A stretch of 48,727 nucleotides of DNA, taken from positions 1 to 48,727 of IMG/VR virus record IMGVR_UViG_3300035698_014302; one strand, written 5' to 3'. The stretch is from a virus. Both the position numbers and the translations under genes were made by a program. Positions 8,064-40,537 of this stretch are shown piece by piece. The number at the start of each line of letters is the position of its first letter. Within the stretch, counting starts at the first letter, position 1. The notes below the pieces were generated by a model. It had not been told where the DNA came from and did not search any database. It saw only the letters and a list, made by a program, of their open reading frames with translations.

Positions 8064-8223
8064 GGAACTCCAGCTCGAACTTGCTGAGACTAGAAGTGCA
8101 CGTAGGAACTTCCCAACTAAGAGGACTTCCGACAAGAAGAAGAAATCAACTGACAAGGCGATAGGAAATGCTTCGGTTGATTCACTTAAAGAACTGCTTA
8201 AAACACTGGAGGAAATGCAGTGA
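8014..8223 (+). CDS. Small basic hypothetical protein
   Basis: 69 residues with a central KRTSDKKKKSTDK stretch between two helices. AAAGGAC precedes the ATG. It overlaps both neighbours (50 bases upstream, GTGA downstream), so it is probably co-translated with the ParB/methyltransferase fusion. Function unknown. Confidence 0.5.
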   Translation: MTDLSSLKKTIGEKTTEELQLELAETRSARRNFPTKRTSDKKKKSTDKAIGNASVDSLKELLKTLEEMQ

Positions 8224-9542
8224 AAGAATCTGTGCTTATGAATCTCCCCTTTGATAAAATCAAGATGGAAGATAGGGAGAGAAAGGTCTACGACGTTGAG
8301 GAACTCCAAGCGGATATAGCAGAGAAAGGTCTAATCCAAACTATAGCAGTGGAAGACCTCGAGGACGGCACCTACCGCGTGGTTGCTGGAGGCCGCAGGC
8401 TCACCGCATGTAGAAACCTATGCTACCCGACTATGCCTTGCAAGGTCTTTCCTCCTCTTGACAACTATGAGAGAAAAGGTATAGAACTAGCAGAGAATAT
8501 TCATAGGGAAGACCTAGCCTACCCTGAAAGGGCCTCTCTTACAAAGCAAGTACACGAGTTGTGGGTAGCCAAGTATGGAGAGAAGAAGGGCGCCAGTCTA
8601 ATTGGCCACTCGGCAAAGGACACTGCTAGGGCCCTCGGTGTATCCTCTATGCAAGTTGGAAGGGAAATAGAACTTGCCACTGCTATAGAGATAATGCCTG
8701 AACTGGCAAATTGCAAGAACAAAAGTGAAGCTATGAAGATGCTAGGGAAAGTGAAGGAGAATTTAATAAGGGAGGAACTAGCAAAACGCTCTGATGAGCT
8801 CCTTTCCAAAACAGGCAAGGACGCTGCTAAGCGAGTACTTATAGATAGCTATATAGTAGGAGACTTCTTTGATAATAAGCTTAAAGCTAAAAGCGCTCAC
8901 TGTATAGAAATAGACTCACCTTATGGTGTAAACCTTAAGTCTCAGAAGCAGGCATCTAAGTACATAACTGAGGGCTACACCGAGATATCTATAAGTGACT
9001 ATCCAGCCTTCCTAAACAAAATAATAAAAGAAAGCTATAGAGTCCTAATGGATGATGGTTGGCTTATCTTCTGGTTTGGTTCTAACCCTTGGCATCATAC
9101 TGTAAAAACAACATTAGAAAAGAACGGCTTTACTATTACGGGGCCTTCCGCTATATGGGTTAAAGGTAGTCAAGCTCAGTGCAACTGGCCTGATAGGTCT
9201 TTAGCAAGTAGCTACGAGCAATTCTTCTATGCTCGCAAAAACAACGCCGTCATTTTCAAACAGGGAAGGCTAAATGTCTTTGACTTCTCCACGGTACCAA
9301 CAGACAGCAAGATTCACCCTACTGAACGTCCAATAGAAATGATGCAGGAAATTCTAATGTGCTTTTGCCCTCCCGCTGGGAGGCTAGTAGTCCCCTGCTG
9401 TGGTAGCGGCAACACCATGATTGCTGCAAGTAATCTAGGAATGCACCCAGTAGGATGGGACATATCTCCTGCTTATAAGGACTACTATATATCAAAGATA
9501 GTTGAGGGAGATTATGGAAACTACAAAAGCTATAAACAATGA
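8220..9542 (+). CDS. ParB-like domain fused to DNA methyltransferase
   Basis: 440 residues from a GTG start (GTGA overlap; GGAGG upstream). Residues 1-110 are a ParB/Srx-type domain: VVAGGRR (54-60) and ENIHRED (92-98). Residues 110-160 have an HTH-like helix pair (ALGVSSMQVGREIELA). Residues 205-440 are an N4/N6 amino-methyltransferase of beta order: motif IV DSPY (232-235; canonical DPPY), HPTERP (366-371), then motif I VPCCGSGNT (391-399; canonical DPFxGSGTT). It probably methylates phage DNA against host restriction; the ParB domain may guide it or bind a nucleotide. Confidence 0.82.
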   Translation: MKESVLMNLPFDKIKMEDRERKVYDVEELQADIAEKGLIQTIAVEDLEDGTYRVVAGGRRLTACRNLCYPTMPCKVFPPLDNYERKGIELAENIHREDLAYPERASLTKQVHELWVAKYGEKKGASLIGHSAKDTARALGVSSMQVGREIELATAIEIMPELANCKNKSEAMKMLGKVKENLIREELAKRSDELLSKTGKDAAKRVLIDSYIVGDFFDNKLKAKSAHCIEIDSPYGVNLKSQKQASKYITEGYTEISISDYPAFLNKIIKESYRVLMDDGWLIFWFGSNPWHHTVKTTLEKNGFTITGPSAIWVKGSQAQCNWPDRSLASSYEQFFYARKNNAVIFKQGRLNVFDFSTVPTDSKIHPTERPIEMMQEILMCFCPPAGRLVVPCCGSGNTMIAASNLGMHPVGWDISPAYKDYYISKIVEGDYGNYKSYKQ

Positions 9543-9550
9543 GGGATAGC

Positions 9551-9799
9551 ATGGACACCTTTAGATTCAGCGATAACCTGAATGTTCCACCTGAAGCTTA
9601 TGAAATATTAAGGGAGGTAATACTATTAGGAGCAAGCAAAGGACATGATAAATGGTGGGAGGAGTCCGTAGATGTTCACCTTGACCATGCAAGGAGGCAT
9701 CTAGTTTGTACCGACAGCCAAGTCTCCCACCACTTAAACCACGCATTTACTCGTCTCATGATGGCGGCGGTTATTCAACACAGGAGGAATTCGAAATGA
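9551..9799 (+). CDS. DUF5664-like dATP/dGTP pyrophosphohydrolase-type protein
   Basis: 82 residues from ATG 9551 (GAGGG five bases upstream); the alternative ATG 9539 overlaps the preceding stop as ATGA. The pattern HLDHARRHL ... HHLNHAFTRLMMAAV matches the His-rich helical core of DUF5664, annotated as a phage dATP/dGTP diphosphohydrolase-like (MazG-type) family. It probably tunes the dNTP pool. Confidence 0.6.
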   Translation: MDTFRFSDNLNVPPEAYEILREVILLGASKGHDKWWEESVDVHLDHARRHLVCTDSQVSHHLNHAFTRLMMAAVIQHRRNSK

Positions 9800-10493: not shown

Positions 10494-10673
10494 ATGACAA
10501 CAAAAGAAGCAATATGCGAGGCCCTTGACAGGCTAGAAGAAAAGCCAGGCCCTATAACAACGCTAATGGATACAGAAGAGAACACTATCTCCATTACCAA
10601 AGACCAGCATGGTGACCTCTATATAACAGTTAGGCACAAAAGAGGCAAAGACCCAAGGGAGAAAAAGAAGTGA
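10494..10673 (+). CDS. Small hypothetical protein
   Basis: 59 residues, basic C-terminus. ATG 10494 is chosen because GGGAGGG precedes it. The stop overlaps the GTG start of the polymerase gene (GTGA), suggesting co-translation. No motif recognised. Confidence 0.5.
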   Translation: MTTKEAICEALDRLEEKPGPITTLMDTEENTISITKDQHGDLYITVRHKRGKDPREKKK

Positions 10674-13096
10674 CCAATCCACCTTATGCTGAAGGCCCTC
10701 TCAAATGTAAAATCTGCTTTATAGGCGAAGCTCCTGGCTATGATGAAGTCCGAGCACAACGTCCCTTCGTTGGACAAGCAGGACAGCTTGCCAACACGCT
10801 CTTTTCTAGAGCAGGTATAATCAGGGCAGAGTGTAGAATTGAGAACGTCCTTCAGTTCCGCCCACCAGGCAACGTTATAACTCCTTATATAGACCTGTCT
10901 AAGAAACCACCTTTTATAAGTGATATAGCCAAGAAGCACATTGCTGAGCTAAAGGAGAGGCTAGAGGAATGTACAGCTAACGTCCTAGTTCCGCTTGGCA
11001 ACGTGCCTTTATATATTTTGACAGGTCTCACTGCTATAACCAAAAGACGTGGTTCTATTCTAAAGTCCCACACTGGCAGGAAAGTAATACCTACAGTACA
11101 TCCAGCAGCAGCCCTCAGGCAGTATGAGTATCGCCACTATATTACTCATGATTTGAAGAGGATAAAGAGGCAAAGCGAGTCGCCTGATGTGAAGCTTCTA
11201 GAACGCTACTTAATCCTTGACCCATCTTTTACAGACGTGATGTGTTATATAGAAAGCTGCTACCAGTGCGAGACTATAGCTTGCGATATTGAGGTGAGCA
11301 GGGAAGAAATCTCCCATGTGAGCCTAGCTAGGTCATCTACCGATGCCATCTGTATACCTTTCTATGAGGGGGGTAAAGAGTACTTCACATTAGAACAGGA
11401 AATAGAAGTATGGCAAGCCTTAGGTAAGCTACTAGGAGATAAGAGCGTAACAATAAGAAACCAGAATATAGGCTTTGACTATACTTTTATGTATGATAAA
11501 CTAGGTATACTGATTAGGCCTATCGAAGATACGATGGTAGCTCAGAAAATAGCCTTCCCAGATTTCCCAAAGGGACTTGACTTTATCACCTCCCTACACT
11601 GCAACGGCGAGCCTTATTATAAAGACGAGGGGAAAAAGTGGCGTGCGGGAATGTTCAAGGACGCCTTAGCTTTTCGCCGTTATAGCGCAATGGACTCGGC
11701 TGTAGTCATGGAAGCCTTTCCTAAGCAGCTCAACGTGCTAAAGCACTTTGGCAACCTTGACACATATGCCCACCAGAGAGACCTAATTGAACCTCTTACC
11801 TTCATGAGCACAAGAGGAATTAGGATGGATATAGAAGGACTGAAGCGAGCTTCAGCTAACGCTACCAAAGATATAGCCAGGCTCCAAGAGGAGCTCAACT
11901 CCATCGTAGGCTTTGAGCTTAATGTTGCTTCGCCTAAGCAAGTGAAAGACTACTTCTATATTAGGAAAGGCCTTAAAGTTTATACCAAACATGGAAGTGC
12001 AATAGTAGACGAGAAGTCACTAAGACGTATTTCTGCAAAAGGCTTCCGTGAGGCAGACATAATACTAGAAATAAGACATCTTAGAAAGATGAAGGGAACC
12101 TACTATGATATTCAGCTAGGCAAAGACAACCGCTTACATTGCTCCTACGACCCAGTAGGAACTAAGCAAGGGAGAATTAGTTCAAGCAAGACTATCTTTG
12201 AACTCGGCGGCAATATGCAAAACCAGCCAGAGGAAATGCTCAAGCTCATGTTGGCTGACCCAGGATACTTAATGATAAACCTAGATTATTCCCAAGCTGA
12301 GAATAGAACTGTGGCTTACATAGCGAACGAGATAAGGATGATTAAGGCGTTTGATGAAGGAGTAGACCTTCATAGACAAACTGCAGGGCTTATATTTGGT
12401 AAACCTATAGAGGATATATCAGATGAGCCAGGGAGTAGTGAACTTAGCGGTGGGAGATTTAGCGAAAGGTTCTGGGGTAAGAAGGCCGACCATGGACTTG
12501 ACTACGACCTTGGATATAAGTCCTTTGCTATCTTGTACCAACTCCTGGAGGCAAACGCAAAGATTATCGTTGAGCGTTACCATACGGTATATCCAGGAAT
12601 TAGAATGTGGCATAGTAGCATCAGGGAACAGCTTTCCAAGAATATGGCGCTTGTTAACTGCCTTGGAAGACACAGACGATTCATGGGAAGATGGGACGAT
12701 GTGCTTTTTAAGGAGGCTTATTCTTTCATCCCTCAGTCTACCGTCGCAGATAAGCTTAACAGAGATGGCCTGTGCTTTGTCTATTATAACCAAGACTTGT
12801 TTGGAGAAGTTGAACTCCTTAATACTAGACACGATTCACTCCTTATACAAGTTCTCATGTCTATAGGTAGTAAAGAAATCTACAACATTATCATGGAGAT
12901 AAAGAGAAGCTTAGAGTCCATAATAAGGTGGAAGGACAGAGAGTTCTCAATCCCAGTAGACTGTAAGTTAGGCTTCACCGCTTATGGTGACATAAAAATT
13001 AAGCATACAGAGTTAGAAGATGAAAGAAAAGTCATAGATAAAATAGAAAGGCTTATCCAAAGCTACAAACAAGGAGAACACAATGGAACAGACTAA
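10670..13096 (+). CDS. Uracil-DNA glycosylase / family A DNA polymerase fusion
   Basis: 808 residues from GTG. Residues ~11-170 are a family 4-like UDG: GEAPG (19-23), PFVGQAG (32-38), HPAAALR (144-150), with Cys13, Cys16, Cys55 and Cys101 as possible Fe-S ligands. Residues ~200-345 are a 3'-5' exonuclease: Asp206/Glu208, Asp270, Tyr338-x3-Asp342. Residues ~370-808 are a PolA domain: motif A DYSQAENR (539-546), motif B Arg600/Lys604 with His608 where E. coli PolI has Phe762 and Tyr612 for Tyr766, motif C HDS (721-723; canonical HDE). No 5'-nuclease domain. This is the phage replicase; the UDG part may remove uracil from template or host DNA. Confidence 0.88.
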   Translation: MTNPPYAEGPLKCKICFIGEAPGYDEVRAQRPFVGQAGQLANTLFSRAGIIRAECRIENVLQFRPPGNVITPYIDLSKKPPFISDIAKKHIAELKERLEECTANVLVPLGNVPLYILTGLTAITKRRGSILKSHTGRKVIPTVHPAAALRQYEYRHYITHDLKRIKRQSESPDVKLLERYLILDPSFTDVMCYIESCYQCETIACDIEVSREEISHVSLARSSTDAICIPFYEGGKEYFTLEQEIEVWQALGKLLGDKSVTIRNQNIGFDYTFMYDKLGILIRPIEDTMVAQKIAFPDFPKGLDFITSLHCNGEPYYKDEGKKWRAGMFKDALAFRRYSAMDSAVVMEAFPKQLNVLKHFGNLDTYAHQRDLIEPLTFMSTRGIRMDIEGLKRASANATKDIARLQEELNSIVGFELNVASPKQVKDYFYIRKGLKVYTKHGSAIVDEKSLRRISAKGFREADIILEIRHLRKMKGTYYDIQLGKDNRLHCSYDPVGTKQGRISSSKTIFELGGNMQNQPEEMLKLMLADPGYLMINLDYSQAENRTVAYIANEIRMIKAFDEGVDLHRQTAGLIFGKPIEDISDEPGSSELSGGRFSERFWGKKADHGLDYDLGYKSFAILYQLLEANAKIIVERYHTVYPGIRMWHSSIREQLSKNMALVNCLGRHRRFMGRWDDVLFKEAYSFIPQSTVADKLNRDGLCFVYYNQDLFGEVELLNTRHDSLLIQVLMSIGSKEIYNIIMEIKRSLESIIRWKDREFSIPVDCKLGFTAYGDIKIKHTELEDERKVIDKIERLIQSYKQGEHNGTD

Positions 13097-28986: not shown

Positions 28987-29109
28987 TTACCTCACAAGTT
29001 TTTCAAGTTCACCCTTAAAACCACAATGAGGGCAGTCGTAAGGGACATTGACCAAGATGGCCCTACAATCGGGACATCTATATTCGGTCGGTTCAGTTTT
29101 TTTAGGCAT
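28987..29109 (-). CDS. Small zinc-ribbon protein (40 aa)
   Basis: MPKKTEPTEYRCPDC then 10 residues then CPHCGFKGELEKLVR: two CxxC pairs, CPDC (12-15) and CPHC (26-29). AAGGAG lies nine bases upstream of the ATG. It sits between the beta-helix gene and the capsid gene, four bases before the capsid start. A zinc-bound cementing or assembly factor is possible. Confidence 0.7.
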   Translation of the reverse strand: MPKKTEPTEYRCPDCRAILVNVPYDCPHCGFKGELEKLVR

Positions 29110-29127: not shown

Positions 29128-30117
29128 TTACGTTGGGCTAATGCCATCGCCTGAAGAACCAACGCCAGTACTACCAGCTAAACCAGTTGCGCCAATTACC
29201 TTAATACAAGCACGGGCAGCAGCGTTCCACTCGATAACGCATGAAAAGCTACAATCCTTAAGCTGTATTGCGGCATGATTACAAACTGGACATTCCCAGA
29301 CTTCAAGAAGTTCGTCAGCTTTACCTGCCCACCTATTATAGAAGTAGCACCCATCAAACCTGACAAAGTCTCGAATGGCATCTCCGTCGGCTACCTTCAT
29401 TATACAGTAAGTGTTAACTTCTGCATAACTAAGGAAATCACAATCAACGAACTTTAACTGACTACATATACCATCAAAGAGAACGATAGAATTATCAGCC
29501 GTTCTTTTTGTACTAGTACCTCCCATAGTACAGTTGTAAAACTCGTTTAGGCTACAATCTTCAAGCTTCAACGAATAGTTAGTTGCCTCACCCGCTGTTG
29601 AAGCATAGTTCATACCCTGAAATGTAACATAGTCCCAGCGATTGTAAGGTCCTGTAATCTCAACACAGAAAGCGGTTGCCTCATCAACACCCTGATAGAA
29701 CCGGAGGTTGGAAAAGTGACAACCTCTTGCTGATACTTTAAAGGCATTATACCCAGCAGCAGTCTCGCTGGCAAACAGCCTCGCTCTAGACTGATTCTGC
29801 AATGGTGCGGCATACCCTACAAAGTGAGTGTAGTTCTTTGCCCATTCTAGCGTATCTGTAATAGTTGCGCTCGTCGCACCGGCCAAATACACTAGAGTAT
29901 CATTCTGGTCGGCGGTAAGTTTGGCGTAAGCTTCGTGTATAGTCGAGCAGGCAGTACCGGGAGTTCTTCCCGTCATGCCAGCTGACTCTGCAGGGTTCAT
30001 ATAGATTGTCTTGCCTTGACCAGCAATAACATTACCGGCTGTTAGGATACCATCTATTTCTACGCCCCCAGGCACTACGCTTATGCCACTCCTGCGCAAC
30101 GCTCCTCTAAGTCCCAT
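29128..30117 (-). CDS. Right-handed beta-helix virion protein
   Basis: 329 residues. Repeating strand-turn pattern with Asn/Asp/Cys ladders (LKLEDCSLNEFYNCTMGG, LKFVDCDFLSYAE, VRFDGCYFYNRW, IQLKDCSF) typical of a parallel beta-helix. A CPVC pair near the end may bind metal. Located among head genes, so a head fibre/decoration is as likely as a tail component. Confidence 0.6.
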   Translation of the reverse strand: MGLRGALRRSGISVVPGGVEIDGILTAGNVIAGQGKTIYMNPAESAGMTGRTPGTACSTIHEAYAKLTADQNDTLVYLAGATSATITDTLEWAKNYTHFVGYAAPLQNQSRARLFASETAAGYNAFKVSARGCHFSNLRFYQGVDEATAFCVEITGPYNRWDYVTFQGMNYASTAGEATNYSLKLEDCSLNEFYNCTMGGTSTKRTADNSIVLFDGICSQLKFVDCDFLSYAEVNTYCIMKVADGDAIRDFVRFDGCYFYNRWAGKADELLEVWECPVCNHAAIQLKDCSFSCVIEWNAAARACIKVIGATGLAGSTGVGSSGDGISPT

Positions 30118-30127
30118 AATTTATCTC

Positions 30128-30502
30128 CTAACTGGTATCGCTACCATTAGTAGCAAACCAATGGATGCCGTCGCTAATTAAAACAAAAGCATCGTTTACT
30201 GTGTCCATAGTGATATGAGTAAAATCAGGCTCGTCAACATCACCAAAGTCCTTAACAGTAACATCTACACCGTCATCTTTAACAAGATAAAGGAAAAATA
30301 TCATTCCTCCTGCTAATGCTACTGGAGGCAGATATAACGTAAGGGCATTAGCATTGTCAGTTGTTAGCTCAACACTTCTTATGTCCGTAGTCATCTCGTA
30401 CTCAGTTACTAAAGCACTGCTAGTTACAAAAGCCACCCCCGCTCGAGGGGTTAGACCTGCATTAGCCGTCCTTTGCCCTTGTTGGGCCCCTGGAATATTC
30501 AT
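30128..30502 (-). CDS. Small virion paralogue A (putative head decoration)
   Basis: 124 residues, strand-rich. Begins MNIPGAQQGQRTANAGLTPR, has LPPVALAGGMIFF in the middle and ends VNDAFVLISDGIHWF. Closest to the next paralogue B, with which it shares a nearly identical N-terminus. Fifth of five tandem related genes; see finding. Expected to form a small beta-sandwich on the capsid, but tail attachment is possible. Confidence 0.6.
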   Translation of the reverse strand: MNIPGAQQGQRTANAGLTPRAGVAFVTSSALVTEYEMTTDIRSVELTTDNANALTLYLPPVALAGGMIFFLYLVKDDGVDVTVKDFGDVDEPDFTHITMDTVNDAFVLISDGIHWFATNGSDTS

Positions 30503-30512
30503 AATTTATCTC

Positions 30513-30884
30513 CTAACTGGTATCGCCACCGTTCATTGCGAACCAGTGAATACCATCGCTGGTACAAATAAAGGCGTCGTTTGTTGTGGCTATGGTAACT
30601 GCACTAAAGTCAGCATCATCACCATCATCGTCAATGACAAGATTTCCTCCAGCACCTGTAACGATGTAGAAGAAAAACATCATCCCGCCCGCCTGTGCCA
30701 CTGGAGGTAGAGTCAGCGTAAGGTTCTTACTGCCATCAGTTACCACAACCCAGCTCCTCTGGTCAGTTGTCATATAGACAATCTCATGGTCAGTGCTATC
30801 TCCAGTTTTATAAACGACCCCACCTCTAGGAGTTAAACCAGCGTCAGCAGTTCTTTGTCCCTGCTGGGCTCCTGGAATGTTCAT
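30513..30884 (-). CDS. Small virion paralogue B (putative head decoration)
   Basis: 123 residues. Shares with A the opening MNIPGAQQGQRTA.AGLTPR, the LPPVAQAGGMMFFFY core and the ending NDAFICTSDGIHWFAMNGGDTS, so A and B are a recent duplication with 10 bases between them. It follows palindrome copy 6, which separates the A/B pair from C-E. Confidence 0.6.
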   Translation of the reverse strand: MNIPGAQQGQRTADAGLTPRGGVVYKTGDSTDHEIVYMTTDQRSWVVVTDGSKNLTLTLPPVAQAGGMMFFFYIVTGAGGNLVIDDDGDDADFSAVTIATTNDAFICTSDGIHWFAMNGGDTS

Positions 30885-30901
30885 AATTAAATCCTTTCTA
30901 A

Positions 30902-30926
30902 ACTCGTTAACAATTTGTTAACAAGA
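30902..30926. promoter_or_regulatory. Dispersed operator-like palindrome, copy 6
   Basis: Flank CTCG, core TTAACAATTTGTTAA, flank CAAGA. It lies between paralogues C (stop at 30928) and B (start at 30884). Confidence 0.8.
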
Positions 30927-30927
30927 T

Positions 30928-31266
30928 TTACGACCAATTATAGTTAAGAACGTTCCACTGGAGGCCGTCGCTCCATAGCAGAACGAAATCCCCTGGCTCA
31001 TCCAGGGTTATGTCAGTGTCCGCCCTCAAAAACCCACTATCTATAAGAACGTCTACTTCCTCACTATTTATGAGGACAAACACACTTATAAAGTTTCCTG
31101 GGCTATCTGCGGGTCTAGGCACCTTAATACTGATAGCAGAATCGTTAGAAGTAAGTTCCACGAAGACTGTAACATTCGTCTCGTCAGGTAGCCGTAGGCC
31201 TTTGTTCGTGTGGTAAACTTCCACTGCCCCAACATCCTCGATATACAAACCATCTCTAAGTCTCAT
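30928..31266 (-). CDS. Small virion paralogue C (putative head decoration)
   Basis: 112 residues. More diverged, with IKVPRPADSPGNFISVF in place of the LPPV core and FVLLWSDGLQWNVLN at the end. Overlaps the stop of paralogue D by 4 bases. Same predicted strand order as the others. Confidence 0.55.
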   Translation of the reverse strand: MRLRDGLYIEDVGAVEVYHTNKGLRLPDETNVTVFVELTSNDSAISIKVPRPADSPGNFISVFVLINSEEVDVLIDSGFLRADTDITLDEPGDFVLLWSDGLQWNVLNYNWS

Positions 31267-31601
31267 GTCTGTACTCCTGATAATTCGTACCAGTTATTTC
31301 CATCGCTATATAAAATAGTATAATCGTCAAGTGCTGTCATAGTAACATTGTTTGCAGCTGCCGCATCTGATATGTAGATGTTAGCGCCATCTGCCGAGAG
31401 TGCCTTAAAATCATTAGGGAGAACAGCATCATCGTCACATCTAATAACAAATATTAATCCTGCTACATCTTGTGCTGCTGGTAAGGTCACATCATGTGCG
31501 GCAACCCCTCCTACACTACAAACTGTCATAACTTCTTCAGTTATGGTAGCGTCAGCAGATGCGTAAATTAACTTTCTCACCATTCCGTCATAAGTTTTCA
31601 T
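31263..31601 (-). CDS. Small virion paralogue D (putative head decoration)
   Basis: 112 residues. Core VTLPAAQDVAGLIFVI and end DDYTILYSDGNNWYELSG. Same architecture as its neighbours with low identity, so an older duplicate. Overlaps C by 4 bases. Confidence 0.55.
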   Translation of the reverse strand: MKTYDGMVRKLIYASADATITEEVMTVCSVGGVAAHDVTLPAAQDVAGLIFVIRCDDDAVLPNDFKALSADGANIYISDAAAANNVTMTALDDYTILYSDGNNWYELSGVQT

Positions 31602-31609
31602 CGCTTCCC

Positions 31610-31981
31610 CTATAGATGTGATATATTCTCAGCTATTGGGTGCCAGTGACAACCATCGCTATATAATACTACATACTCACCATTAGCGTCTAGAGAGATA
31701 GAGGGATACATACCGGACATCCCAGCAAGAATGTTTTCAGTTATTATATCAGCAGAGTTCTGCGATATAGTTAGAATATTAGGGTCAGCCGTTGCTGTAC
31801 CAAATATAGTATAAATATGCCCCGCTGCGTCCTTAACAGGCGGAAGTGTTACAGTCTTCGCTGCTGCAAGGGTAGCGTTTACAACTCTGTCGCCTAGTTG
31901 CATAGCATAGGTATCATTTATAGCTATCTCTTGCGTTATCTCGCTAGCCCTTTTAGGAAAGACAATAGTTCTGTTCCTCAT
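31610..31981 (-). CDS. Small virion paralogue E (putative head decoration)
   Basis: 123 residues. Core VTLPPVKDAAGHIYTIF, end EYVVLYSDGCHWHPIAE. First of the five-gene array in transcription order, directly after the scaffold gene (7-base gap). Confidence 0.55.
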   Translation of the reverse strand: MRNRTIVFPKRASEITQEIAINDTYAMQLGDRVVNATLAAAKTVTLPPVKDAAGHIYTIFGTATADPNILTISQNSADIITENILAGMSGMYPSISLDANGEYVVLYSDGCHWHPIAENISHL

Positions 31982-31988
31982 TGTAGCC

Positions 31989-32882
31989 TCACCTTGAATC
32001 CATTAGCTGTTTTATTTCTGCTCCTACACCTGTAGGTTCCTTAGGTTGAGGAGCTCTCTTTCCTGAACCAGGGTTAAAGTTGCCCCTACGTTTCTTCTTT
32101 TTATCACCCTTATTCTGATTAGGAAGAGTCTCACCAGTGCCTAGTCTCCTTCTAACCTCCTTAGCCAAGTTTGTAAAGTGTGTTAGAGGAGGAGTTTCTG
32201 GGTCCTTTTTAACCATCTCATTATAGACATAAGAGACAAACTCCCTTTGAGGAAGCAGGTCTTGATTCTCTACAAAGAACTGGTCTGCTTGCCTGTATGT
32301 TGCAACCTCGTCCTGGACTAACCTAGTTATAACAGGTGGAAGGCTCTTGTAAACATGCTCGAGGGCTTTATTAGCTGCCACGCTTGCAGTCTTATTAAGC
32401 GTTGCATTTATCTTACTTGCGTCATTAAAGAGTTCCTCAAGGTCGTCGTCCTTTCCTATGAACTCATCTTCTAGAACAAGAGTTGGTGCCTTATCTTCCT
32501 CTATCTCATCAGGTTCTGTTCCCCTTCCAGAGACCTCATTTAGTTGCTGTCGAAGTAACTCGTTCTGCTTAAGCAAAGCCTCCATCTGTACCTCTTGAGG
32601 TGTTTTCTCACTATCTACCTCACCTTCGTCCTCAGTCTCTTCATCACCTTTGTCTTCTTCACCCTTTTCACTTGCCTCCTCTGAATCTCCCTCAGTTTCC
32701 TCAGTCTCCTTGTCTTCTTCCCAAGAAACATCCTCTTCCTCGCCAGCTCCTTGCTCTTTGCCTTCCTGCTCTTTGGTTTCCTCATTAGACAGGCCCTCCT
32801 CTTTCTCTTCTTGAGGAGATTCCTCCTTGGACTTACTTCCCAGTAAGCTTCCTACTTGTTCTCCAATGTCATGAAGGTTCAT
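31989..32882 (-). CDS. Capsid scaffolding protein
   Basis: 297 residues. The first ~110 are extremely acidic (Glu-rich), the centre has a coiled-coil-like helix (MEALLKQNELLRQQLNEV), and the C-terminal tail is basic (KGDKKKKRRGNF). Acidic/helical body with a basic capsid-binding tail, placed between portal and capsid genes, is the usual scaffold layout. Confidence 0.75.
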   Translation of the reverse strand: MNLHDIGEQVGSLLGSKSKEESPQEEKEEGLSNEETKEQEGKEQGAGEEEDVSWEEDKETEETEGDSEEASEKGEEDKGDEETEDEGEVDSEKTPQEVQMEALLKQNELLRQQLNEVSGRGTEPDEIEEDKAPTLVLEDEFIGKDDDLEELFNDASKINATLNKTASVAANKALEHVYKSLPPVITRLVQDEVATYRQADQFFVENQDLLPQREFVSYVYNEMVKKDPETPPLTHFTNLAKEVRRRLGTGETLPNQNKGDKKKKRRGNFNPGSGKRAPQPKEPTGVGAEIKQLMDSR

Positions 32883-33157: not shown

Positions 33158-35137
33158 TTAACCCATTCCAATAGCTTCCTCCATAGGTACAAGGTTTCCA
33201 GCTTGAGCCTGAGCGGCTACCTCCTCATCAGGTAACACTGAGGCCTGTATGTTTCTCTTTTTAAATCTGTGTAAGTTTCTAGCTCCTGAAATCCTAGCCC
33301 AGTGCTCAAAGATTCTAGTCACGTCAAACTGCTCTAACAGAGCAGGTTGGGAAGCTATAACTTGAAGCATAGCCATCCAGGCCTGAGGGTCACCACTAGT
33401 AGGAAGTGTAGCATCATGAGTTACTACGTTATACTTGATTAAGATATCAAGAGCTCCTACCATTACTCTATCCTTAGCATCTCCATATTCTTCCCTTAGT
33501 CTCTCCTCGTACTCACCAACTATAGAGACATACTGCTCTTGTGACATGAACTGCTGAGTATGTGAAGCATACATTTCGGCTAGAGGATTTATAGCCTGCA
33601 AGCCAGCAATTAGAGCTTGCTTCTCTAACCTAGAAAGTGCACCACCTTGCCTTCCTTGAAACTCTGTTGCGCTGATTCTCTCCTTCTTAGCTGCAACGCC
33701 ACCCTGCAAAACATCCTCGGCACCAGAGACCCTATCTAACAGCTGCGCTATTACTCCAGACTCTCTAATATGAGCTGAGGTAACATCAGTAACTTTAAGC
33801 TGCTCTATTACGTCGGCAACGCCTCTTCCCCAAACAGCCCTTCTTGTTCTAATTACTTTGCCGGGCTTTGGTGTGAGGAGGTCGTTGACGTTAATAGACT
33901 TAGGGTCAACCACGAACATATCGTGGATTGCCCTACGGACATTTTGAATGTGCGAATTATAAAGGAAGTTTATAAGAGTCTGCAATCCATAAATAGTCTC
34001 AAGCTTAGATATAGGCGTAACTGAATAGCCATCGTACTCAGGAGAGCATATAACAACAGGAAACATGTTGTGGTCTAAGTCTACTGGATGAGCAGAGGTT
34101 ATTACCTGGTCTCCTGTTAAGGCAAAAGCCCACTTCTCTGGATATCTACCTTTCCCTATAGCGGGCCCCTGGTCTCCACGAGTCCTCCATTCACTTGGGA
34201 TAAGGTCTATATACATATAGATAGTATCCATACGAGAAGTGTGGCTGTGGTATCCTTCAGCATTAGAAGACACACCATACTTATCTCTTTTAGAGTTATC
34301 CTGTGCTAGCGTACTCCTTCCGTCTATATGAGCTAAATACTTAGCATTAAATACATTAGAATCATAAGCTTCCCTACCTAGTAGCTCTGTTCTACTCTCT
34401 ATCCTAATCCAACCTACGTATTCACCTCTCTGAATATCCTGAATAGGATGATTAGGGTCGGGGAGGAAGTTATAAGGGTCTATGTTATGAAGTTCATTGC
34501 CCTCAAACTTCACATCCTCGACCCTATCTACAATATCTTCGTAGCCAGTAAATCTATTAAGCATTACTGAGAAAATACCCTGTTTCCTCTTCTGCCTTTT
34601 CCACCCCATCTTCTGTGACCAAATAGGAGCTACAGCACCAAAGCCATAGGCAAGCGCATCTCTGAACATTGTATGAAGTTGAATACCCATACCACTTTTT
34701 CTGGTCTGCAGCTCTATTATTTTCTCTAAAAGAATGCCACCTAAAACATCCTCATCAGTAAAGCCCTCATAGCGGAAGATTGGCTCTTCTAGGAAGGCTA
34801 TAACGAGATATGTGAGGAGTGTATCTATAGTGGCATAAGAAAGGGGAACGACCATAGATACCGACTTTGTCTCGTCCTGAGACCGCAAGGTCTCCTCGGC
34901 ATCTGATAGAGGAATGAAAGACGTTAGAGTCTCATCTACCTTATTCCAACTGGGAAACCTTGCAGATATAGCAGCCCGACTCTCCTGAGCTCGATATAAG
35001 ATTTCACCTTTTAAAAACTCGTGCATTTCGCTTCCGGGTCTTAAGTCCATATTAAGAGGATAAGAGTACTTATATCTGGCATCTAGTACACTAGCATTTA
35101 AAGTCTGCTTCGGATATGGATTCAATATATTCGGCAT
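33158..35137 (-). CDS. Portal protein
   Basis: 659 residues. An N-terminal wing region with EFLKGEILYRAQESRAAISA is followed by SMVVPLSYATIDTLLTYL and a central stem/clip with LETIYGLQTLINFLYNSHIQ and RRAIHDMFVVDP, as in portals of podovirus-like phages. Forms the dodecameric DNA gate. Lies between large terminase and scaffold, as expected. Palindrome copy 7 precedes it. Confidence 0.8.
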   Translation of the reverse strand: MPNILNPYPKQTLNASVLDARYKYSYPLNMDLRPGSEMHEFLKGEILYRAQESRAAISARFPSWNKVDETLTSFIPLSDAEETLRSQDETKSVSMVVPLSYATIDTLLTYLVIAFLEEPIFRYEGFTDEDVLGGILLEKIIELQTRKSGMGIQLHTMFRDALAYGFGAVAPIWSQKMGWKRQKRKQGIFSVMLNRFTGYEDIVDRVEDVKFEGNELHNIDPYNFLPDPNHPIQDIQRGEYVGWIRIESRTELLGREAYDSNVFNAKYLAHIDGRSTLAQDNSKRDKYGVSSNAEGYHSHTSRMDTIYMYIDLIPSEWRTRGDQGPAIGKGRYPEKWAFALTGDQVITSAHPVDLDHNMFPVVICSPEYDGYSVTPISKLETIYGLQTLINFLYNSHIQNVRRAIHDMFVVDPKSINVNDLLTPKPGKVIRTRRAVWGRGVADVIEQLKVTDVTSAHIRESGVIAQLLDRVSGAEDVLQGGVAAKKERISATEFQGRQGGALSRLEKQALIAGLQAINPLAEMYASHTQQFMSQEQYVSIVGEYEERLREEYGDAKDRVMVGALDILIKYNVVTHDATLPTSGDPQAWMAMLQVIASQPALLEQFDVTRIFEHWARISGARNLHRFKKRNIQASVLPDEEVAAQAQAGNLVPMEEAIGMG

Positions 35138-37013: not shown

Positions 37014-38282
37014 TTAATGAACAAACTTAAGTAAGGCTCTCTCATCTTTTCCGCCACTATCGAGGAAAGTTCCTCTAGCTAAAGTATCCGAGTTTTGTGG
37101 CCTTATTCTTATAAGTGAATCAGTTCCAGTAGTTACACTTGTATCTTTAGTATCGTCAGTCTCATCACCTACCGTGATAAAGGTAGCTACATTGCTCTGG
37201 TTATCAAACTCTGCATCGTGCTGAGCTTTGCTTCTTATCGTGTCAGATATTCTAATCTCGTCTAGAGTACCAGTTAAATGACTGCCACCATAATTGAACC
37301 CAAAGTATAGGTTGTGTGTGGATTCTGGTTCTGTAACAGACAGAACACCATTACCGGCAGCTGTAATAGTTAAAGACTCATCGTTCTTATTAATATAGAG
37401 CTCAATGGTGTCTCCACCATAAACTACCTGGCAATAGTGCCAAGTGGCTTCTAAGCAATTAGTACTTCCGCAAAATCTGATTTTAGTGCCACTAGTATCA
37501 GTTCCCCGAAATTCTATCTTCCCTGTAGGGTTCCTAAATGTAGTAAAGCCGCCCTCATAGCCTTTGTCCACGTATGCATGAACATATCCAGTAGACCTAC
37601 GAAACCAAAAACTAATAGTCTTCGTTGCTGACATAAGAGCTACGTCATGAGGCGTTATTATCTTATGCTCACTCGCTGCCTCAAAGCCCTGACCATAGTC
37701 TATTCTTCCAGCGCACTGAGCAGGCCCACCAGCTTCTGACTTCGTTCCTACTAAAACGTTACTTGTACTATCTTTTACGTGCTCATTATCAGGGTTATCG
37801 TACATATGCCAGACACCAAGATAGTTATCATCCCAAACGCTTTGACTTCCATAAGCTTCACCTACAGCTGGCTGTGTGTATGTAGGAGAGTTGTAATACA
37901 TATAGATAATAGTGTCCTCAGAAGCAGAAACTGACGGCACTTTAACCCAGCCATAAAGGACTCCAGTATCACCAGAGTCTATATATCTCTCAATCTCAAA
38001 TGGGAGCCTTGTAGTATCATCCGAAAGATAAAACATCATATCTTGACCGTCTGCTCTAAGATGCTCCTTATCAAAGTCAGATACGTAAATGTAAAGAGGA
38101 AAGTTCGTCAAAGTGCTACTTACCTTAGTATGGTCTATAGTGATAGTTCTTCTATTGCTAAAGGCATAACCTACTACAGTAGTAGACCTACTCGCACGTT
38201 CCCTGACAACTATTGTATGGTTAGCGTCTTTTAGCTCTCTAGTAGTACTAGTAAGAGCTGTTATGTCATCTGAGATTCTCAT
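37014..38282 (-). CDS. DUF2341 + LamG-like adhesion protein
   Basis: 422 residues. Residues ~50-135 carry the DUF2341 pattern (LTNFPLYIYV ... IIYMYYNSP), and residues ~160-330 a concanavalin-like LamG fold (ISFWFRRS, TWHYCQVVYGGDTIELYINK, GTLDEIRISD). Probably a receptor- or glycan-binding tail/fibre component. Related to the two LamG genes at 39144-40537. Confidence 0.65.
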   Translation of the reverse strand: MRISDDITALTSTTRELKDANHTIVVRERASRSTTVVGYAFSNRRTITIDHTKVSSTLTNFPLYIYVSDFDKEHLRADGQDMMFYLSDDTTRLPFEIERYIDSGDTGVLYGWVKVPSVSASEDTIIYMYYNSPTYTQPAVGEAYGSQSVWDDNYLGVWHMYDNPDNEHVKDSTSNVLVGTKSEAGGPAQCAGRIDYGQGFEAASEHKIITPHDVALMSATKTISFWFRRSTGYVHAYVDKGYEGGFTTFRNPTGKIEFRGTDTSGTKIRFCGSTNCLEATWHYCQVVYGGDTIELYINKNDESLTITAAGNGVLSVTEPESTHNLYFGFNYGGSHLTGTLDEIRISDTIRSKAQHDAEFDNQSNVATFITVGDETDDTKDTSVTTGTDSLIRIRPQNSDTLARGTFLDSGGKDERALLKFVH

Positions 38283-39143: not shown

Positions 39144-39872
39144 TTAGACTCCGTAAAGGTTACGAGTAGATTCATAGAAAGCTGCAAACCATGCAGCATT
39201 CTTTTCCTCATTTATAATCTGTATCTGAGGAGATATGTAGCCATTAGCAAATAGCGTGTCGTCTTTTCCTATCTCTATAGCAGCAACACCGTTTTCCATT
39301 GCTACGTAGCTAACTGCATTAAGCTCGGCGTCGGCATTGTCGACGTCTACTCCGTTTATATAAAGGTTAACCCCAGCACTAGTTCCACTACCACTATAAG
39401 AAGCACCTACATGTATCCAGGCCTCCTCATCGCCACTTATATCTGCTGTCTTTCTACCAATATAGCAGTCAGCAACACTCTCATCAAATAGCTGGAAGGA
39501 AAGCATGTCGCTAGCATCGACAAGAAACCGCCACTCGCCAGAGGTGTTATAAACACCCTTCTTTATAATAGGAAACTCAGTTGCATCAGTCATGTTTATC
39601 CACGCTGCAACGCTAAAGGGGTGGTCGCTGCTAGCGATAGTCCTGCCAAAGGAAAGTAGGCTATTGTCAGGGATAGACAGATAGTCTGTCGTGCCATTTA
39701 ACAGAAGTGCATAAATTGTGCTGTTTATAAGCGCCCAGTCACCTGCAGCTAGGCCTCCCTCAAATGAGCCATCAAGGGTGTTTCTACTACTATCATAAAG
39801 AACAGCAGGTAAAGTGCCAGGAGCATTACGCCCATAGACTATAGGTGCAAATATTATTCCAGTTGTTTTCAT
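39144..39872 (-). CDS. LamG/concanavalin-like fibre protein
   Basis: 242 residues. LamG pattern: YLSIPDNSLLSFG, FSVAAWINM, EWRFLVDASDML, AWIHVGASYSG, VNLYINGVDV, AIEIGKDD. Ends with YESTRNLYGV, nearly the same ending as the next paralogue (YQSYGV). Probably carbohydrate-binding fibre tip or accessory. Confidence 0.65.
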   Translation of the reverse strand: MKTTGIIFAPIVYGRNAPGTLPAVLYDSSRNTLDGSFEGGLAAGDWALINSTIYALLLNGTTDYLSIPDNSLLSFGRTIASSDHPFSVAAWINMTDATEFPIIKKGVYNTSGEWRFLVDASDMLSFQLFDESVADCYIGRKTADISGDEEAWIHVGASYSGSGTSAGVNLYINGVDVDNADAELNAVSYVAMENGVAAIEIGKDDTLFANGYISPQIQIINEEKNAAWFAAFYESTRNLYGV

Positions 39873-39874
39873 AT

Positions 39875-40537
39875 TTAAACTCCATAAGATTGGTAAAGGT
39901 TTGCTACTTGACCAGGGTTAAATGGGTAACTGTAAATGCGAATGTCAGCCAGACCGCCATCAAAATGATTAGCGCCTGGAACATCTCGTCCAATTCTAGA
40001 GGGATACTCAATAGTTCCAATAGTGTATGTTGATGCAGCACTGTCTCTCTCAACACCATCTACATACACCTTGTGTGTTCCACCAACACTGTCAACTATG
40101 ATAATAATATGATGCCACTGATTGTTATTTATAACTCCAGTTAAATCTACATATTCATATTTATTATTTCCATCATCATCATATCTCCATCCATAATAAA
40201 ATTTACTGTCAGTAGCAGTATAAATATAAAATCTATTTTTTGTACCTGTGTCTGTGTTTGCAAAAATCCAGTCTGTCCGGCCTCCAAAATTGCTCCACTT
40301 AGCCCAGAAAGAAAAAGTAAACGTTGGGCCTAAAATCTCACCAGTAATTTCAATGCTATCACTATTATCAGCGACAAATAATGTTATGCCATTAGAACGA
40401 CCAAGCCAGTCATTACCAAAAACAGGGGTATTTGCTGGGGTCCCATTATTACTATTTCGGCTCTTATCCCTGAAGTAAGTGCCATCGTAGTTTTCACTAT
40501 TTAAAGGCCAACGACCTAAAATTCCCGTAGACTTCAT
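39875..40537 (-). CDS. LamG/concanavalin-like fibre protein, AT-rich copy
   Basis: 220 residues. LamG pattern: FTFSFWAKWS, DSKFYYGWRYDD, QWHHIIIIVDS, HKVYVDGVERD, FDGGLADIRIY. Its central codons are visibly more AT-rich than those of neighbours, suggesting later acquisition. Overlaps the coiled-coil gene by 4 bases. Confidence 0.65.
   Translation of the reverse strand: MKSTGILGRWPLNSENYDGTYFRDKSRNSNNGTPANTPVFGNDWLGRSNGITLFVADNSDSIEITGEILGPTFTFSFWAKWSNFGGRTDWIFANTDTGTKNRFYIYTATDSKFYYGWRYDDDGNNKYEYVDLTGVINNNQWHHIIIIVDSVGGTHKVYVDGVERDSAASTYTIGTIEYPSRIGRDVPGANHFDGGLADIRIYSYPFNPGQVANLYQSYGV

Follow-up and report, generated by a model that had tools for sequence, protein, structure and literature searches.

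T4 gp9, T4 gp10 and CBA120 TSP4 are trimers through which fibres or tailspikes are attached to the virion. Their N-terminal domains are like the fold predicted for two, B and C, of the five tandem proteins described here (A to E), but the T4 and CBA120 proteins belong to the tail or baseplate, carry extra domains and have no sequence match to A-E, which are single-domain proteins encoded near the major capsid protein (MCP) gene. The capsid spike of Pa223 (PDB 9ny6), deposited as three chains under the title capsid spike, resembles B in predicted fold and shows no sequence similarity to the profile of the A-E family. Unlike A-E, it has 295 residues and occurs as a single copy in PaP3, where the gene for the homologue, orf20, comes last in the structural operon rather than next to the MCP gene. 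Streptomyces phage Dennebes (Flowerpowervirus) belongs to a different phage group and was found starting from the sequence of a relative (L070). Its gp38 is a member of the family (family HMM E 5e-13) and is MCP-adjacent like A-E, but it is a single copy directly after the MCP gene, whereas A-E come before it; gp38 is annotated as hypothetical, and in relatives as a minor tail or baseplate wedge protein. The SU10 protein gp10 has the number next to that of the MCP (gp9), and a role as a possible head decoration protein has been proposed for it (PMC9509320). By description it is MCP-adjacent like A-E, but it is predicted to be immunoglobulin-like, unlike the T4 gp9-type prediction made here; the phi29 gp8.5 head fibre and the Epsilon15 minor capsid protein are grouped with SU10 gp10 for this comparison.

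The array under study lies in a 48.7-kb virus record (IMGVR_UViG_3300035698_014302, positions 1 to 48,727), the whole of which is called the window. The nearest relative found is L003 (IMGVR_UViG_3300033388_004806), whose MCP is 75% identical. ORF calls put A-E, of 112-124 residues, consecutively on the minus strand at 30128-31981, and the features of the locus, from the portal to the MCP, are as follows.

33158..35137, minus strand: portal protein, 659 aa (position and homologues in the clade)
31989..32882, minus strand: scaffold-like protein, acidic, 297 aa (role from position and composition)
31610..31981, minus strand: paralogue E, 123 aa (ORF, HMM, L003 orthologue)
31263..31601, minus strand: paralogue D, 112 aa (ORF, HMM, tree)
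30928..31266, minus strand: paralogue C, 112 aa, the most divergent (ORF, HMM, AlphaFold2, Foldseek)
30906-30922, no strand: exact palindrome GTTAACAATTTGTTAAC between C and B (motif scan)
30513..30884, minus strand: paralogue B, 123 aa (ORF, tree, AlphaFold2, Foldseek to trimeric virion proteins)
30128..30502, minus strand: paralogue A, 124 aa (ORF, family HMM, dS and dN against B and L003, leader)
29128..30117, minus strand: 329-aa protein in the slot between scaffold and MCP, with the leader MxxxGxLxRxGI at its start
28987-29109: zinc-ribbon-like ORF (CPDC...CPHCG), 40 aa, directly before the MCP and also in L003
27663..28982, minus strand: MCP of SU10_MCP type (Pfam PF17236, E 1.7e-32; PHROG 1328)

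The order of transcription is E, D, C, B, A, with a 4-nt overlap between the start of C and the end of D; the portal and scaffold-like genes are upstream of the array and the 329-aa, 40-aa and MCP genes are downstream. Sigma-70-type promoter matches in the region show no excess (13 versus 14.1 in shuffles). The 329-aa protein has no match in the databases searched, Pfam and PHROGs included, and its sequence allows the guess that it is a beta-helix. The portal gene of L003 (3129-6170) encodes 1013 residues, versus 659 in the window, and carries an in-frame, intein-like insert beginning CYDKETEVLTSRGWVPF. Elsewhere, the window encodes three Laminin_G_3 (concanavalin-like) proteins upstream of the terminase gene (37014-38282, 39144-39872 and 39875-40537), an 808-aa protein with a uracil-DNA glycosylase domain and a family A DNA polymerase with 3'-5' exonuclease (10670-13096), and a 440-aa protein with a ParB-type N-terminal domain and an N6/N4 DNA methylase domain (8220-9542).

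Smith-Waterman comparison places all ten pairs of A-E above all 500 shuffles, with z from 4.7 to 56 and the lowest value for C-D, and a single family HMM detects each of the five at E about 1e-18 to 1e-26. Since this HMM was seeded with A-E, the pairwise shuffles are the independent test of homology. Shuffles and HMM together rule out chance similarity of the motifs, and with the coordinates they agree with the original prediction of five consecutive homologous genes. The shared motifs given in that prediction stand in part: SDG..W and one P are present in all five, and the longer motifs hold only approximately. The invariant positions of the alignment are M1, one P, S-D-G and W only, and at the claimed central motif C has VPRPADSPGNF and D has LPAAQDVAGLIF.

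The survey of the family took in 73 distinct loci that have a related MCP and a portal in reach. The raw tally between portal and MCP was one member in 61 loci, two in 5, none in 5, four in L003 and five in the window. Inspection mended it at two places, an early MCP start call that masks a member in L032 and a 'two' in L081 that consists of overlapping 67- and 75-aa pieces of one frame-broken gene, giving one member in 63 loci, two in 4, none in 4, four in L003 and five in the window. Five copies are thus unusual, as had been supposed, about 63 of the 73 loci having one and only L003 and the window more than two. L100 has an independent tandem pair (8953-9345 and 9363-9755). In 49 loci the member ends 120 nt or less upstream of the MCP start. 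The related Desulfofustis phage LS06-2018-MD01 has no gene at the corresponding place, and because it and about 4 of the 73 loci are without the gene, the family is not essential to the SU10-type capsid. A-E fit two traits of tailed-phage decoration proteins, being small and encoded among the head genes and being missing from some relatives. A T/P/A-rich C-terminal tail is present in 32 of 80 members, and in six members of 394-507 aa the domain always occupies residues 2-125 with a further body behind it; the C-terminal bodies of the larger members span 270-400 aa.

Searches outside these loci gave little. Pfam and PHROGs returned isolated weak matches only for each of A-E and 68 members; one of these, D to Lys_export (E 0.11), is below the cut-off and was rejected. 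Sequence searches of the PDB gave nothing convincing, the best with profiles being a weak tail spike match (E 0.016), and with B and E as tblastn queries no annotated phage scored better than E 0.05; the weak hits in Gordonia phages carry the annotation minor tail protein. The family domain also occurs in a Microcystis phage, in a 'putative tail fiber protein' (E 3e-8). A plasmid search found no match. In bacterial genomes the MCP turned up once, on a short contig from a Brevinema andersonii bin; this contig is possibly a mis-binned free phage and so is not taken to indicate the host. Judged from these comparisons, A-E belong to an unnamed family that is regularly present across this phage clade and has no convincing sequence match in Pfam, PHROGs or the PDB.

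The gene order of L003 is that of the window, namely E, D, C, a single A/B-type gene, the 329-aa protein and the MCP. Selection on C, D and E is purifying and similar in strength to that on the MCP, with dN of 0.19-0.23 and dS of 1.3-1.9 against their L003 orthologues, versus a dN of 0.19 and a dS of 1.7 for the MCP, and in this they behave like real genes; the E orthologue is 73% identical. In the tree C has a very long branch, D groups with the single-copy members of L012 and L013 (95/88) and E is unplaced; C-E are old, in agreement with the earlier view. Orthologues of C, D and E were found in IMG/VR in L003 only, by short-peptide-pattern scans that distant relatives can escape.

A and B had been regarded as recent duplicates, a view that the present comparison reverses. 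Over the whole gene they differ with a dS of about 1.8, nearly saturated and similar to the MCP dS between the window and L003, and a dN of 0.28. The tree pairs B with the copy in L003 (100/85) and puts A outside this pair (99/92), so that the A/B duplication is probably older than the split of the window from L003, one copy having since been lost in L003. The N-termini of A and B are near-identical, as described, at the protein level (pN 0.06 over the N-terminal 24 codons) but not at the DNA level (pS 0.74), and as the synonymous sites are nearly saturated, this likeness reflects protein selection and not recency. About 25 nt that are identical at the B/A junction and at the A/329-aa junction point towards recency, and may be the product of local exchange or of ribosome-binding-site constraint.

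The N-termini also divide the array. Most single-copy members start with M(S/A)LED..AQHDKVVVDKY or MGLEQNNEQHYREVVDKY, the family consensus being MxLEDxxAQHDKVVVDKY. A and B start with MNIPGAQQGQRT, which was taken by eye as a variant of MxLEDxxAQHDK. C, D and E have nothing resembling the family leader; their three N-termini differ from one another, and each is also present in L003. Gene content across loci shows the stretch from scaffold to MCP to be a replaceable cassette. The slot of L014 holds genes for 187-, 176-, 121- and 310-aa proteins, and those of L004 and L006 hold genes for 200-, 181/182-, 116/117- and 265/266-aa proteins, the third being in each case the family member. The slot of L021 (7569-8989) has no family member and contains genes judged by eye to be glycosyltransferase-like and hexapeptide-repeat acyltransferase-like. 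The second leader, MxxxGxLxRxGI, precedes unrelated bodies in the 329-aa protein of the window and in the slots of L004, L009, L010, L012, L014, L019, L033, L038 and L054, which suggests that this leader may be a shared docking element to which different bodies can be joined.

The exact palindrome between C and B confirms that one operator-like copy separates A/B from C-E, as first proposed. Palindromes of this type (roughly ATCTYGTTAACAAWTTGTTAAMRAGAT) occur at about 11 places in the window (2129, 2780, 7722, 14920, 20650, 30906, 35158, 41851, 46878, 46912 and 48397), where the scan expects 1.8 matches, and are mostly intergenic, many of them immediately before a start codon. The window sequence is absent from L003, which has at the same C/B place CTGTGTAACATTTTGTTATGCAG and three more such sites in the DNA examined, its own palindrome type being CTGYGTAACAWWWTGTTAYRCAG at four places. 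A differing palindrome at the same place implies a regulatory or processing site whose sequence has diverged and whose position has been kept between C-E and the genes for B, A, the 329-aa protein and the MCP. The palindromes are candidate operators of diverged specificity or RNA hairpins, and the site may let A/B track MCP expression and C-E track that of the portal and scaffold.

Fold prediction covered B and C. AlphaFold2 with the family alignment gave pLDDT 82 and pTM 0.71 for B, and pLDDT 84 and pTM 0.76 for C; each alignment included the other protein, so that the two models are not independent. In Foldseek, both models match the tailspike 24qj, CBA120 TSP4 (probability 1.00 for both) and T4 gp9; the Pa223 capsid spike 9ny6 is a further match of the B model (E 1.6e-3, probability 1.00) and T4 gp10 a further match of the C model, and the KP1 baseplate is among the matches. 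TM-scores are moderate (0.48-0.61). From the fourth decade of C on, each of its strands has a single counterpart in B, at an offset of 10 residues. B and C are therefore predicted to share a virion fold of the T4 gp9/gp10 type; unrelated folds, which would have spoken against one family of virion proteins, were not obtained, in models whose alignments shared each other's protein.

The explanation that best fits these observations, to which we give a probability of about 0.6, is that A-E are small trimeric knobs of the T4 gp9/gp10 type on the exterior of the head, as decoration or short spikes. The original prediction of head-associated virion proteins agrees with the synteny with the MCP over 73 loci, the Dennebes member beside its MCP and the predicted fold, from which the location on the head is suggested. 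A-E would be made together with the scaffold and the MCP, and each copy would fold as a small trimeric peg and bind the head; we infer both the trimer and its place on the capsid surface. The A/B leader would serve as a capsid-docking arm, and the C-terminal side would face outward, because relatives carry Thr/Pro-rich tails or large bodies there. Such tails and bodies, like the resemblance to surface-exposed virion spikes, ill fit a transient helper, and it is improbable that A-E are chaperones or scaffold helpers missing from the finished virion, even though their genes adjoin the scaffold gene. As a parallel, SU10, in whose head density the MCP-adjacent and predicted immunoglobulin-like gp10 did not appear (PMC9509320), speaks for an assembly factor and against the head reading. 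The head reading must also reckon with the occurrence of the domain or fold in tail proteins (the Microcystis phage protein, TSP4, T4 gp9 and gp10). The closest solved folds are mostly tail components (TSP4, T4 gp9, T4 gp10 and the KP1 baseplate), and together with the Microcystis phage protein and the minor tail annotation of the weak Gordonia phage matches they speak for a place in the tail or neck, as trimeric adaptors or knobs that would hold, for example, fibres such as the 329-aa protein or the LamG proteins. The place of the genes between scaffold and MCP argues otherwise, as the SU10 adaptor and fibres (gp11-gp13) are encoded downstream of the MCP (PMC9509320); a second phage group, represented by Dennebes, also has its member beside the MCP, and the Pa223 match bears the title of a capsid spike. 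A position in the tail or neck is a rather unlikely reading.

How much the five copies differ in function is a separate question. One copy or none suffices in the relatives, and orthologues of C, D and E come from L003 only, as would be expected if A/B kept the ancestral single-gene role and C-E were duplicated or acquired with little separate function. Against such redundancy stand the dN of C, D and E, which is at the level of the MCP, and the retention in L003 of their separate N-termini and of the gene order, and we hold it to be unlikely. The original prediction had also raised switchable adhesion, through expression of a single copy at a time or recombination between copies. Tandem paralogues with a regulatory palindrome among them could be arranged in this way, but A-E all have the same orientation, one behind another, and no recombinase, reverse transcriptase, invertase or integrase was found by Pfam and PHROGs scans among the window proteins submitted, so that a diversity-generating retroelement (DGR) or phase variation was rejected. 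The nearly saturated synonymous sites of A and B likewise imply no recent exchange in the coding bodies, and a switchable cassette is extremely improbable.

Returning to knobs on the head exterior, for which the original prediction had suggested a mixed or site-specific decoration, we infer a specialisation of the five copies. C, D and E, having no leader and different N-termini, should bind other sites, form heterotrimers with A/B or sit elsewhere on the virion. SU10 heads are prolate and contain six variants of hexamer (PMC9509320), so that non-equivalent sites exist if the head of the window phage is alike. It is conceivable, though doubtful, that A/B dock through their leader on one class of capsomer site, with C-E elsewhere or in defined heterotrimers; the joint picture, a surface patterned from one duplicated fold on a head that may be prolate and SU10-like, is just as speculative.

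The array is an expansion, in tandem, of an unnamed head-associated family that now has a predicted fold and a likely place on the virion, and one phage lineage carries four or five versions of it where others carry one. If the proposed role is true, nature would provide in this lineage a way to test whether decoration proteins that are paralogues share out the non-equivalent sites of a capsid, and the assignments would help the annotation of many environmental phages in which the neighbours of the head genes are 'hypothetical'.
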